This document shows positions 32,443 to 36,772 of a stretch of 56,094 nucleotides of DNA, in pieces. Both the position numbers and the translations under genes were made by a program. The DNA comes from Thermoproteota archaeon (GTDB lineage: Archaea > Thermoproteota > Thermoprotei_A > Sulfolobales > Acidilobaceae). How positions within the stretch are numbered: the stretch's first letter is position 1; every line of letters begins with the position of its first letter. The stretch covers positions 1 to 56,094 of the forward strand of contig JAUQQR010000004.1 in the NCBI GenBank assembly GCA_030549835.1, given 5' to 3'. The notes under the pieces are model-generated. The model ran no database searches. It saw only the letters and a list, made by a program, of their open reading frames with translations, and was not told the origin of the DNA.

Positions 32443-32727
32443 TTATTCACCTTTATATTCTCCTATAATTCTAAATATGCCACGCCATTTACCATATGGA
32501 CTTCTAGGCTCTATGATTTCTGAGAGCTCTATATTTAACCCAATACTTCTAGCTACATATACGAAGTCTTCAATCCAATCTATTAATCCACATGTCTCAC
32601 AGAATGATCCTTGAAATGATACTTTAATAGTATCATTACTTATCTCTACAAGTTTAGCTCTAGCCTCTCTACCTCTAAATTTATTATATATTCTTATAGC
32701 TCTCCTAGTCTTCTCCTGAATACCCAA
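32443..32727 (-). CDS. Conserved crenarchaeal-type hypothetical (94 aa), C-x2-C motif
   Basis: The protein has an alpha/beta pattern: basic helix (RAIRIYNKFRGREARAKLV), strand TIKVSFQGSFCETCGLIDW, helix WIEDFVYVARSIGL, strand. The strand-FCETCG-helix layout recalls the NifU C-terminal domain (strand, C-x2-C, helix), which holds an Fe-S cluster, but similarity is only in layout. TTG 32727 begins two nt after the stop of the upstream surface-protein gene, so translation is coupled. Function unknown. Confidence 0.5.
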   Translation of the reverse strand: MGIQEKTRRAIRIYNKFRGREARAKLVEISNDTIKVSFQGSFCETCGLIDWIEDFVYVARSIGLNIELSEIIEPRSPYGKWRGIFRIIGEYKGE

Positions 32728-32729
32728 TA

Positions 32730-34037
32730 CTAGACTCCTCTCCTTGACTGGATGTATAGTGGACCTATTATTATGATTAGAGTAGCTACACCTATGAGCA
32801 CTAGTATTATTGTTGGATTATTTATAATACTACTACTTTGCTCATCTCTACTTGTCTGAGACTCTACTATTATGGGGGTTGTATATGGGCTAGTGCTAGT
32901 TTGCTTACTTAACTCTTCTAAGCTACTCTCTAATGTTGGCATAACTGATTTCTCGATAATGGATACTAGTCTAGATAGGTTTCTAACTACTGAAGTAACT
33001 TGTCTAGTCTCACTAGCTAAACTTACTAGGTCTCTAACTAAGTCTACCATATTAACTAGTATTTCACTAGTAGTCCTCTTTGTTTTAACTTTATATAATG
33101 TAGTCTCTGTATAGACCTCTAAGGTCTTATTCTTAATAGTTAATACTAGTACCCCACTATAATTAGCTTTCCTACTATCGAGTTTAGTGTATAAGAGCAT
33201 ACCTGAAGACTTAACTTCTCCGGGTTCAAATATGATGCTAATATTACATTTGGTAGTATGCTCTTTAAGTAACTTAGCGGTAGTGGGTACCCTTAATTTA
33301 TCCCAGGCTGGGTAATATAGTTTAATAATAACTCTAACTTTAGACTGCTCTACTTTAACACTATATTCTAGTGTAGCATTTGGATTAATTGTTTTAATTA
33401 ATTCAGATAAATCGCTGAGAGTATTTTTCAATATAGTGTATATGACTCCTGCTAATACTTGATTTACCATAGCATTATCTGTTTTAGGCTCTATTGTAAG
33501 CCTACTACTTAAATTAAACCACTTATTAGTCAGATTAAACCATACATCACCATATGAGTCAACTCTTAGAGCCTTCACTCTAGTAGCTGAAGCTAAATTC
33601 CCATAGTCTACATATGTAGCATTAAATCTTATAGTCCCACTCGTTAAATTACCAATATAGACTGTAGAGTCTGCTATTAGGTTAAGAGTGAAGTTTAAAT
33701 CTCTACTAGTAGTATTAGCTAGTTTTAATTGTATAGTTGAGTAAGTCTTACTAGTATTATTCCGGAGCTCATTAACTATATGTGCTGTTATTGAGCCTTT
33801 TAGATCACTTTTATGAATCTTAGATAAATTAAAGTTAACATTTAGCGTAGTAGCATTATATGATACCATAATGTTAAGTGTTATATTCTCTAGTTTAACA
33901 GGAGCTCTTACCTTATTAATAGACTGAATATACGCACTACTCTCAGCTTGAGCTTGAATAGTGTAAGGTAATATTAGTATTAGAGTTATGATAGCTACAG
34001 CTATTATCCTAGCTATACTCTTATCTATAAGACTCAA
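32730..34037 (-). CDS. Membrane-anchored secreted protein (435 aa)
   Basis: A Sec signal peptide (IARIIAVAIITLILILPYTIQAQAE, cleavage near AQA) is followed by a 350-residue beta-rich exterior domain with more than ten N-x-S/T sites, a Ser/Thr-rich stalk (SKQTSTSPYTTPIIVE) and a C-terminal helix (NPTIILVLIGVATLIIII) ending SRRGV. It is thus anchored outside the cell with a tiny cytoplasmic tail. I do not recognise the exterior domain. It is co-directional and nearly abutting the 94-aa gene downstream. A signal or adhesive role is possible; nothing specific is visible. Confidence 0.65.
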   Translation of the reverse strand: MSLIDKSIARIIAVAIITLILILPYTIQAQAESSAYIQSINKVRAPVKLENITLNIMVSYNATTLNVNFNLSKIHKSDLKGSITAHIVNELRNNTSKTYSTIQLKLANTTSRDLNFTLNLIADSTVYIGNLTSGTIRFNATYVDYGNLASATRVKALRVDSYGDVWFNLTNKWFNLSSRLTIEPKTDNAMVNQVLAGVIYTILKNTLSDLSELIKTINPNATLEYSVKVEQSKVRVIIKLYYPAWDKLRVPTTAKLLKEHTTKCNISIIFEPGEVKSSGMLLYTKLDSRKANYSGVLVLTIKNKTLEVYTETTLYKVKTKRTTSEILVNMVDLVRDLVSLASETRQVTSVVRNLSRLVSIIEKSVMPTLESSLEELSKQTSTSPYTTPIIVESQTSRDEQSSSIINNPTIILVLIGVATLIIIIGPLYIQSRRGV

Positions 34038-34078
34038 CTTCTTAACCCTAATGATAGGATGATTAGAGAGGTTAAATA

Positions 34079-34813
34079 TTAGTTTATAAATGATTTTAGG
34101 CTTATTGGTAGCTTTATTTTCGTTATATTCCTAGTTAGCGGTAATGCTACATTATATACTGGGACGCCTTTCACCATAACATATTGTCTACCTAGATGTG
34201 AATGTCCATGTATAGCTATGTTAGGTCTAGACTCTACTAAGGCTTTCTCCATCTTCTTCGAGAACATCTCAGGCCATATCTTAGGGTCTTCCCCCTTAAG
34301 ATTCTCTGATGTTAGTGCATAGTGTGATACTAGTATTACTATATCTGCATCTCTCCTAGCCTCACTTATTAGATTAGTAACTACCTCAGGTCTTCTCTTA
34401 TACTCTTCTTCAAGCCACGGCATATTAGCTGACTGCCATTTTGTTAGCCTATCTATTGCTCCCTGTGTCCCTATAACTGCTACCTTAATATTAGAGCATT
34501 TAAGTATAGATAAAGAGTCGTCAAGCCATATTATATTACTATACTCTCTTCTAAGCCTATCTCTTACACTATGATACTCCTCATTACCAAATACTGCTAT
34601 AATAGGAGTACTCCATTTTGATGCTAGCTCTTCTACAACTGGCTTCATCATCTCAACCCTTCCCTTATCAATTATATCTCCTGCTAATATGAATATACAG
34701 GGTTCTACGTCTAGATTTCTAAGTGATTGTCTGAATAGCTGGAGGAATCTTGGGCTATGTATATCGCTTACAGCGTATAATATTGAAGCTTCACTCAATA
34801 TCTTCAGCCTCAC
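34079..34813 (-). CDS. Calcineurin-like metallophosphoesterase
   Basis: The 244-aa protein has AVSDIHSPRF (D-x-H, motif I), FILAGDIIDKG (GD, motif II), IAVFGNEEYHS (GNHE-type motif III, here GNEE), VSHYAL (motif IV) and AIHGHSHLGRQ (GHSH, motif V), the metal-binding set of this superfamily. The third motif has Glu where GNH(D/E) is usual, which may alter metal or substrate choice. It overlaps the glmS-like gene by 4 nt (GTGA), so the two are translationally coupled. Typical substrates are phosphodiesters, nucleotides or proteins. A link to amino-sugar metabolism is possible from coupling. Confidence 0.8.
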   Translation of the reverse strand: MRLKILSEASILYAVSDIHSPRFLQLFRQSLRNLDVEPCIFILAGDIIDKGRVEMMKPVVEELASKWSTPIIAVFGNEEYHSVRDRLRREYSNIIWLDDSLSILKCSNIKVAVIGTQGAIDRLTKWQSANMPWLEEEYKRRPEVVTNLISEARRDADIVILVSHYALTSENLKGEDPKIWPEMFSKKMEKALVESRPNIAIHGHSHLGRQYVMVKGVPVYNVALPLTRNITKIKLPISLKSFIN

Positions 34814-36618
34814 GTAGTTATAGCTTTAGCTAGCCCAGGAGGAGTATCTATAGGTAGAGTCTTAATTACTCCAATCTTATAAGCTAAGAGCTGTAATGGG
34901 ATAATAGATACTATGGGGGCGGTTATTCTAGTAGTCTTAGGTAGTCTTATTGTTGAATCTTCTCTAAACCCTAATCTTATAGTATGAACATCTCTACTCC
35001 TAATCTCTCCAAGGACTTTCTCATATAATTCTAGAGCTTGATCCTCTACAGGCTCAACTAGGATTATAGGGTGTTCTCTACCCGCGAGCACTAGAGGACC
35101 GTGTCTTAGTTCTCCAAGCTGTACTCCTTCAGCATGTACTAGTGATGCTTCTTTAAGCTTGAGAGCTCCCTCTAAAGCTATTGGATAACTTATACCACTA
35201 CTAGTAACATAGACCTTACTTATTCTAACTAAGTCTTCTGCTATAGCTGAGACTTGAGATTCTATTCTTGGGAGCTCTTCTCTAGTAATCTTAGCTGTAT
35301 TCTTTATATCAATATACATGTTCTCTAAGCTACTCTTATCAAACCTCCCAGTATATAAGCCTGTATAGCCTGCTAGTATAGCTAGAGTTGCTAGTGTAGA
35401 TGTAAATGTCTTTGTTGCCGGGACAGCTATCTCAGGCCCGGCACCTATGGGTAGGTAGACGTTAGAGTGTATTGTTAGTCTAGAGCCTAGAACATTAGTT
35501 ATACCAACTATAACAGCCCCCCTCTGTTTAGCTAGCTTAATGCTCCTAATAACATCACTAGTCTCTCCGCTCTGGCTAATAGCTAATACTACTGTTCCAG
35601 TTATGACATTATTTAGAGCATAGTATGGGAATTCAGCTGCACTTACAACATTAACATTAATACCTGCCAAGTCTGCAAAGTAGTACTGTGATATTAGTCC
35701 TGCATGTAGACTGGTACCATTACCTATAACTATGACGTTTCTAGCATTAGCTATAATCATAGCTGATAATCTAAGATACTTATCCATAAGTGATACTGTA
35801 GTCCTTAGTAGAGCATCTGGAATCTCGTAAATCTCTTTAAGCATATAGTGGGGGTATCCAGCTTTACTTATAGCCTCTAATGGATACTTAACCTTTTTCC
35901 TCTGATACTCTAGGATTTCAAGCCCAGACTCTAAGCTTAATATCTTAAAGCCTCCTGGAGTAACTATTGATACAATATTATCTTCTAGTATCACAGCCTC
36001 ATCAGAAAACCCGTATAGGCTAGCTATGTCACTAGAGACATATATGCATGGACCTTCAGGCTTTAACCCTAGGACTAGGGGTTGACCCTTAGATATTAAG
36101 CCTAAGGCGTTGAGACCAGTAATCATTATAACTGTTGAGTATAATCCATCAACTCTCCTACCAGCATCTAAGAGTATATCCTGGAAGCTTAAACCACTAC
36201 CTAGAAGCTCCTCTACAATATGGGCTAAGACTTCAGTATCAGTAGTAGATGTGAACCTATGACCTCTACGTTTAAGCTCTTCTCTTAAATCCTCATACTT
36301 ATAGATAACACCATCCATAACTACAGCTATGTTACCCTTACAGTCTAGGAGAGGATGGCTATTAAAATCTGCTGGTACACCTCTACTAGCATATCTTGTA
36401 TGGCCTACAGCAATATTAGAGTTGAAGCTATCGAACCCAAGTTTACTCATAACCCTCTCAATGTGACCTACAGTCTTTCTCACAATAATTAACCCATTAT
36501 CATCAAGGAAGCCGAAGCCTGCACCATCGTAACCCCTATATGTAAGTCTACGTAAACCCTCCCCTATGACTGAGAGGTTAACTTTATCTTTACATGCGAA
36601 CCCAAATATGCCTCCCAA
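34810..36618 (-). CDS. glmS: GlmS-like glucosamine-6-phosphate synthase lacking the catalytic cysteine
   Basis: The 602-aa protein has the GlmS layout: an N-terminal class II glutaminase-like domain (1-230) and two SIS domains. The isomerase part is good: IVIGNGTSLHAGLIS, AISQSGETSDVIRS, ATKTFTSTL, LEGALKLKEASLVHAEG and GELRHGPLVL, ending PPGLAKAITT. The glutaminase part is odd. It should begin M-C-G-I with Cys2 as nucleophile; here the only possible start is TTG followed by GGA, giving MGGIFGFACKD, and the residue before TTG is in frame with a TAA. The oxyanion Asn of HNG is replaced (VVMDGVIY), though GHTRYASRGVP and TTDTEVLAH remain. It may use ammonia, or be a paralogue. It overlaps the phosphoesterase by 4 nt. 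Confidence 0.8.
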   Translation of the reverse strand: MGGIFGFACKDKVNLSVIGEGLRRLTYRGYDGAGFGFLDDNGLIIVRKTVGHIERVMSKLGFDSFNSNIAVGHTRYASRGVPADFNSHPLLDCKGNIAVVMDGVIYKYEDLREELKRRGHRFTSTTDTEVLAHIVEELLGSGLSFQDILLDAGRRVDGLYSTVIMITGLNALGLISKGQPLVLGLKPEGPCIYVSSDIASLYGFSDEAVILEDNIVSIVTPGGFKILSLESGLEILEYQRKKVKYPLEAISKAGYPHYMLKEIYEIPDALLRTTVSLMDKYLRLSAMIIANARNVIVIGNGTSLHAGLISQYYFADLAGINVNVVSAAEFPYYALNNVITGTVVLAISQSGETSDVIRSIKLAKQRGAVIVGITNVLGSRLTIHSNVYLPIGAGPEIAVPATKTFTSTLATLAILAGYTGLYTGRFDKSSLENMYIDIKNTAKITREELPRIESQVSAIAEDLVRISKVYVTSSGISYPIALEGALKLKEASLVHAEGVQLGELRHGPLVLAGREHPIILVEPVEDQALELYEKVLGEIRSRDVHTIRLGFREDSTIRLPKTTRITAPIVSIIPLQLLAYKIGVIKTLPIDTPPGLAKAITT

Positions 36619-36772
36619 AGGTTAACTACCAAGTTTTAATGTCTAGCTAGGTAGTATTTATAAGCTAATACTATAGATACTCTATTCCCTAAGCTTTCCC
36701 TACACTTTCCATAGTATACCCTAATATGGGGGTTTAACCTATTAATATATATGGTATAGTGAGGTGGGCGGT

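Follow-up and report, generated by a model that had tools for sequence, protein, structure and literature searches.

A GlmS lineage of Thermoproteota without the glutaminase cysteine, and its possible turn to glucosamine-6-phosphate deamination

The window, the whole 56,094-nucleotide stretch of DNA analysed here from a Thermoproteota archaeon of the Acidilobaceae (contig JAUQQR010000004.1), encodes on its minus strand a 602-residue GlmS paralogue (34810..36618, stop 34812-34810) that matches TIGR01135 and lacks the glutaminase nucleophile. This raises the question of whether such a protein is an artefact, a relic or an enzyme with a different task. The initial annotation held that TTG (36618-36616) is the sole possible start at this end of the gene, a reading that stands, as an in-frame TAA two codons upstream (36622..36624) excludes an earlier one. 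The second codon, GGA (36613..36615), places Gly at the position of the nucleophilic Cys, while the ammonia-channel Trp (E. coli Trp74) is replaced by Tyr76 (36391..36393) and the glutaminase Asn (human Asn123) by Asp102 (36313..36315); all of these codons are on the minus strand. The motifs read MGGIFG..HTRYASRG..MDG, in which HTRYASRG replaces HTRWATHG and MDG (residues 101-103) replaces HNG. The loss of Cys and of HNG, both noted initially in the window protein (hereafter GG-GlmS, as are its relatives), recurs in the five same-genus orthologues, which display 65-67% identity to it (tblastn). All five carry [M/V/L]GGIFG at the same start position together with an xDG motif, and therefore neither a sequencing error nor a misplaced start accounts for the MGG of the window.

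Relatives were gathered from two sets of genomes, 214 belonging to the order and 398 sampled across the phylum. In the order, genomes were taken to contain GG-GlmS at E<=1e-190, with N-termini read in the fetched loci only; scores against a profile of the clade were bimodal, 79 genomes falling at 649-986 bits and the next match at 533. Residues were counted in 91 distinct GG-GlmS and 116 distinct canonical GlmS proteins, the latter comprising 44 from the archaeal genomes of these searches and 72 from other loci. Five of 220 proteins were dropped, comprising three in the wrong frame (L085, L088 and L106), a fragment (L229), and L247, whose frame continues upstream though it reads VGGIFGFYC. The two groups were defined by residue 2, and their agreement at other positions is independent of that split. 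Whether relatives share the MGG start was answered without exception: residue 2 is Gly in 91/91 GG-GlmS proteins and Cys in 116/116 canonical enzymes, and a Cys2 sought among the close orthologues was not found. The differences extend across the glutaminase site. Residue 102 is Asp in 90 GG-GlmS proteins and Glu in one, in contrast to Asn in 116/116 canonical proteins; residue 76 is Tyr (80), Phe (9) or Ser (2), where all 116 canonical proteins have Trp; and His, invariant at residue 101 in the canonical set (116/116), occurs there in none of the 91. At residue 79 (E. coli His77), 36 members of the clade retain His and the other 55 have Arg, and Thr is found at the place of human Thr679 in 55/91. 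Gly103 is retained throughout, as are the other ligand-pocket residues Arg75 and Asp127 (91/91 each). Cys9 (window codon 36592-36594) is present in 51/91 members and is almost confined to the RYASRG branch (50 of the 51 carry Arg79).

Passages of the human GFAT literature assign glutamine hydrolysis in GFAT-1 to Cys2, Asn123, Gly124 and Thr679, and describe the turning of Trp96 (E. coli Trp74) as the event that opens the ammonia channel (PMC7000685, PMC7948480). As the nucleophile, the oxyanion Asn and the ammonia-gate Trp are lost together clade-wide, GG-GlmS is predicted to be unable to use glutamine, a well-supported view that agrees with the initial annotation.

The isomerase half tells a different story from the glutaminase half. 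The former (approximately residues 250-602; 34813..35871, minus strand) comprises two SIS domains identified by profile matches, and its motifs, described as intact when the gene was initially annotated, are indeed kept. E483, K487, E490 and H506 are conserved in 91/91 GG-GlmS proteins and K598 in 90/91, the remaining row being gapped. K487, E490, H506 and K598 were equated through conserved motifs with human Lys558, Glu561, His577 and Lys676, whose roles are described in the human GFAT literature. Clade-specific changes in this half occur at residues 328, 359, 398, 400, 408, 473 and 583. The glutaminase half (approximately residues 1-240; 35899..36618, minus strand) matches GATase_6 and has lost its catalytic residues. 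An AlphaFold2 model built from 19 clade members (mean pLDDT 88.2) aligned with the structures of both E. coli GlmS domains: its isomerase half matched the isomerase (1moq) at a Z of 45.3 with an rmsd of 2.1 over 345, and its N-terminal half the glutaminase domain (1xff) at a Z of 34.6 with an rmsd of 1.6 over 235. In the model, the fold is kept in both halves and the glutaminase active site is missing. On sequence grounds, the protein is predicted to combine a dead glutaminase with an intact isomerase.

A tree of the isomerase domain was built from 154 rows, comprising the 91 GG-GlmS proteins, 56 of the 116 canonical enzymes and seven of eight stand-alone SIS proteins, one short row being left out. 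All 91 Gly-type proteins lie on one side of a branch with an SH-aLRT of 99, requiring one label change, and both canonical GlmS and the stand-alone SIS proteins fall outside the group. The group itself consists of a branch of 56 rows that includes the window protein, a branch of 33, most of which retain ATHG or STHG, and two basal rows. To judge from this tree, the Gly-type clade has a single origin and is an old lineage in Thermoproteota. Eleven close pairs were listed for dN/dS, of which nine gave a value, one was saturated and one lacked a sequence. The values, 0.04-0.18 for the glutaminase half and 0.015-0.13 for the isomerase half, indicate purifying selection on both. The TTG start is unusual and the loss of motifs might at first sight suggest a sequencing error, a wrong start or a decaying pseudogene. 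The same residues, however, recur in the same-genus orthologues and in 91 distinct proteins, ruling out an error or a misplaced start; at the relatives' loci the frames are open and free of internal stops, and the low dN/dS in both halves rules out decay. The likelihood of such an artefact is negligible.

Most genomes with GG-GlmS also encode a conventional enzyme. In the genome from which the window derives (G000) a separate, intact GlmS with the motifs MCGI..HTRWATHG..HNG, 35% identical to GG-GlmS, is located on another contig, and a canonical match accompanies GG-GlmS in 70/79 genomes of the order (E<=1e-125). At this threshold nine of the 79 lack a canonical match; six of these are <=86% complete, and in G159, also one of the nine, the gene is present in pieces. 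G123 (99% complete) and G130 (97%) contain GG-GlmS without a full-length canonical GlmS at E<=1e-125, reflecting either contig breaks or a real absence. In the window's family, no full GlmS of either kind was found in three genomes of genus g14 (G018, G027 and G035; 92-99% complete), and G019 carries two canonical-like genes on contigs C17 and C29, neither of which belongs to the Cys-less clade by score. A search of a phage collection returned only canonical GlmS-like matches, at 32-34%.

Insight into the possible role of GG-GlmS is provided by its genomic association with NagA, the GlcNAc-6-P deacetylase. Among the 214 genomes of the order, 55 contain both NagA and GG-GlmS, 12 only NagA, 24 only GG-GlmS and 123 neither; 55/67 NagA genomes therefore have GG-GlmS (Fisher p 1.6e-20, a value uncorrected for relatedness). 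Of the 55 genomes of the order with both genes, 21 have NagA <=350 bp from GG-GlmS by printed coordinates and 23 have it <=1.3 kb away. NagA was the commonest neighbour family (15 regions) in the first 40 regions analysed together with the window, and all six GG-adjacent NagA proteins tested exceeded the TIGR00221 cut-off. The pairs are spread over several families and may be convergent, divergent or on the same strand, a variety expected if the link was formed or kept repeatedly. Outside the order, NagA adjoins GG-GlmS in 6/6 fetched genomes of one genus (L251-L256). Classical NagB (TIGR00502) was detected in 0/214 genomes of the order, while controls were detected. In the 12 genomes with NagA only, seven encode a stand-alone SIS protein of the GlmS-isomerase/NagB-II type (approximately 320-385 aa). 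In G196 (L263:8163-10213), where Cys-less GlmS is absent, this protein lies directly beside NagA, and the profiles that it matches best are those of the GlmS isomerase half, NagB-II and GlmD, in that order, each under its cut-off; in G150 (L264) a stand-alone SIS protein adjoins a BadF-type kinase. A SIS protein in G057 (L325), not counted here, is accompanied by PfkB-type and BadF-type kinases and a possible tagatose-type aldolase, named by eye, and may serve another sugar.

Gene linkage and the phylogenetic profile together lead us to infer, at a probability of roughly 0.58, that in most of the clade GG-GlmS is a GlmS converted to a GlcN-6-P deaminase-isomerase that releases ammonia. The main reason is that the only visible deaminase candidates in NagA genomes are Gly-type GlmS or stand-alone SIS proteins. 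The enzyme would catalyse GlcN-6-P + H2O -> Fru-6-P + NH3 downstream of NagA in the breakdown of GlcNAc or, in some genomes, MurNAc, while the separate Cys-bearing GlmS would make GlcN-6-P. Without the Cys and the gate Trp no ammonia would be channelled, leaving the isomerase site free to run towards ammonia release, and the retained glutaminase fold may act as a structural or ligand-binding lid. Several findings count against this proposal. Among the 12 genomes with NagA only, five lack both GG-GlmS and a stand-alone SIS match, 24/79 GG genomes in the order lack NagA, and profiles name the window protein as GlmS: it scores 459.1 bits against TIGR01135, over the cut-off of 418.05, but only 125.6 against NagB-II (NF046059; cut-off 430), its glutaminase domain being present, and 76.8 against GlmD (NF041128; cut-off 580). 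A bolder version, which we regard as speculative, is that GG-GlmS represents a third, unnamed class of GlcN-6-P deaminase, a whole GlmS killed in its glutaminase and run backwards, whose dead pocket, with Arg75, Gly103 and Asp127 kept in 91/91, might sense glutamine or glutamate allosterically and so time the burning of amino sugars for carbon and ammonia.

As SIS isomerases run in both directions, the linkage to NagA identifies the pathway and not the direction. Bypass of the dead glutaminase, with free ammonia and Fru-6-P yielding GlcN-6-P, is the same chemistry in reverse and is compatible with the retention of all isomerase residues. Free ammonia is plentiful in peptide-fermenting hot-spring archaea. 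Such a synthase would also fit the 24/79 GG genomes without NagA, which include the whole window genus, and the near-complete G123 and G130 with their lack of a full-length canonical GlmS. A second synthase would, however, be unneeded in the 70/79 GG genomes, the window's among them, that have a canonical enzyme, and the repeated linkage is to a catabolic gene; we consider synthesis from ammonia unlikely as the general function. The initial annotation had proposed dependence on ammonia or on another protein. The former may hold, but the NagA linkage, the lack of NagB in the order and the intact GlmS paralogue suggest that in most of the clade ammonia is rather a product; the latter received no support.

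The second, canonical GlmS in 70/79 genomes and the selection on both domains would also be expected of a regulatory subunit that pairs with and modulates the canonical enzyme. The isomerase catalytic residues nevertheless show no drift, unlike those of a pseudo-subunit, the two genes are on different contigs in the window genome, and the tight link is to NagA and not to glmS. With no positive evidence in its favour, this explanation was rejected as improbable. Activity as another aldose-ketose isomerase or epimerase of an amino-sugar phosphate is scarcely more probable, although the clade-specific A398, P400, T408 and A328 lie near conserved sugar loops and could signify a new substrate. A precedent would be the GlcN-6-P 4-epimerase ST2245 of Sulfolobus tokodaii, reportedly characterized by Dadashipour et al. 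in 2018. The GG gene of G211, a genome taken as S. tokodaii and encoding a protein identical over 299/299 residues to the hexokinase of PDB 2e2n, is located at 2,553,853, away from where ST2245 is presumed to lie, an argument that is not firm since this place rests on a presumed ST numbering whose anchors mutually disagree (the KDG-aldolase number does not fit). No GlmS-like gene was seen in the stretch of G211 read for ST2245 (approximately 2.224-2.256 Mb). The identity of GG-GlmS with ST2245 is judged unlikely from this soft evidence.

The proposed deaminase may have wider catabolic partners. AnmK (PF03702) occurs in 13/214 genomes of the order, 13/13 of which have NagA, nine having GG-GlmS and the other four a stand-alone SIS protein. 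Some GG loci also encode a BadF-type kinase, or else AnmK together with a beta-lactamase-like protein and a PRK02947-type SIS protein, and would plausibly provide a route from anhydro-MurNAc or GlcNAc to GlcN-6-P. AnmK, BadF and the beta-lactamase-like protein were named by eye, the first two being confirmed by matches to PF03702 and PF01869, respectively. Clusters of NagA, AnmK, the beta-lactamase-like protein and the PRK02947-type SIS protein beside Cys-less GlmS were observed at L205:3722-8000, L197:11416-15709, L200:1-8415 and L301; these clusters look as though they let archaea use sugars from bacterial peptidoglycan.

The window genus departs from this pattern. GG-GlmS is present in 6/6 genomes, and NagA, AnmK and a BadF-type kinase were found in 0/6, which counts against the deaminase reading. 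PIG-L deacetylases are encoded by 8/24 NagA-less GG genomes, including 4/6 in the window genus (G000 is not among them), and are no more than suggestive of an alternative source of glucosamine; a ROK kinase is present in 5/6. In this genus glucosamine could thus be produced and phosphorylated along a different route to supply GlcN-6-P, or GG-GlmS may run in reverse and drive synthesis with free ammonia.

Compared with known systems, GG-GlmS resembles GlmS/GFAT over its full length, with both domains, 31-36% identity to solved structures over the matched part, conserved isomerase residues and a score above the TIGR01135 cut-off, but differs in lacking Cys1, Asn98 and Trp74, in never keeping His97 and in the partial loss of His77 and Thr76. 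The top Foldseek match was the E. coli GlmS C1A mutant (3ooj), an artificial parallel to the loss of Cys in nature, although it carries a single engineered change and the natural clade has also altered Trp74, Asn98 and more. NagB-II from Shewanella (8eol, 8fdb; Z 37.6) has a SIS fold of the same chemistry and the reaction proposed here, without the glutaminase domain of GG-GlmS. That domain is also absent from GlmD of Thermococcales (PH0510, 2cb0/2dec; approximately 325 aa), an archaeal SIS GlcN-6-P deaminase with a Z of 38.7-38.9 to the GG-GlmS model. A passage in PMC3512248 ties GlmD to amino-sugar catabolism in the chitin pathway.

No paper on the Gly-type clade was found in the open-licence literature, a limited scope. 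GlmS, SIS-type deaminases and dead amidotransferase domains are already known. Many heat-loving archaea carry GG-GlmS beside the normal GlcN-6-P-making GlmS. If the deaminase reading is true, a biosynthetic, glutamine-driven enzyme acquired the opposite, catabolic role through the loss of one active site, its scaffold remaining whole, providing a natural experiment on the purpose of the ammonia channel. The deaminase step of GlcNAc breakdown would be filled in NagB-less Sulfolobales, Desulfurococcales, Ignisphaera-like and Thermofilum-like archaea, and an annotation would be corrected, as GG proteins pass the GlmS cut-off and would otherwise be named glutamine-dependent synthases.

The initial annotation also drew attention to translational coupling with a phosphoesterase. 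A 244-residue metallophosphoesterase ORF with a Metallophos match (34079..34813, minus strand) does overlap the GG-GlmS stop by 4 nt, and the two genes are adjacent in the 5/5 window-genus genomes with sufficient contig (G000, G001, G003, G004 and G005; that of G002 is too short). The overlap itself is not conserved, as gaps of 15-415 nt separate the genes in the other four (tblastn). With the linkage limited to the genus (at L178 one copy is 2.7 kb away), the phosphoesterase was rejected as part of the mechanism. In the window (32443-34813) GG-GlmS is followed by the phosphoesterase, a 435-residue protein with hydrophobic ends and a 94-residue protein, an order that is the same in relatives of the genus (clusters c6, c21 and c42).
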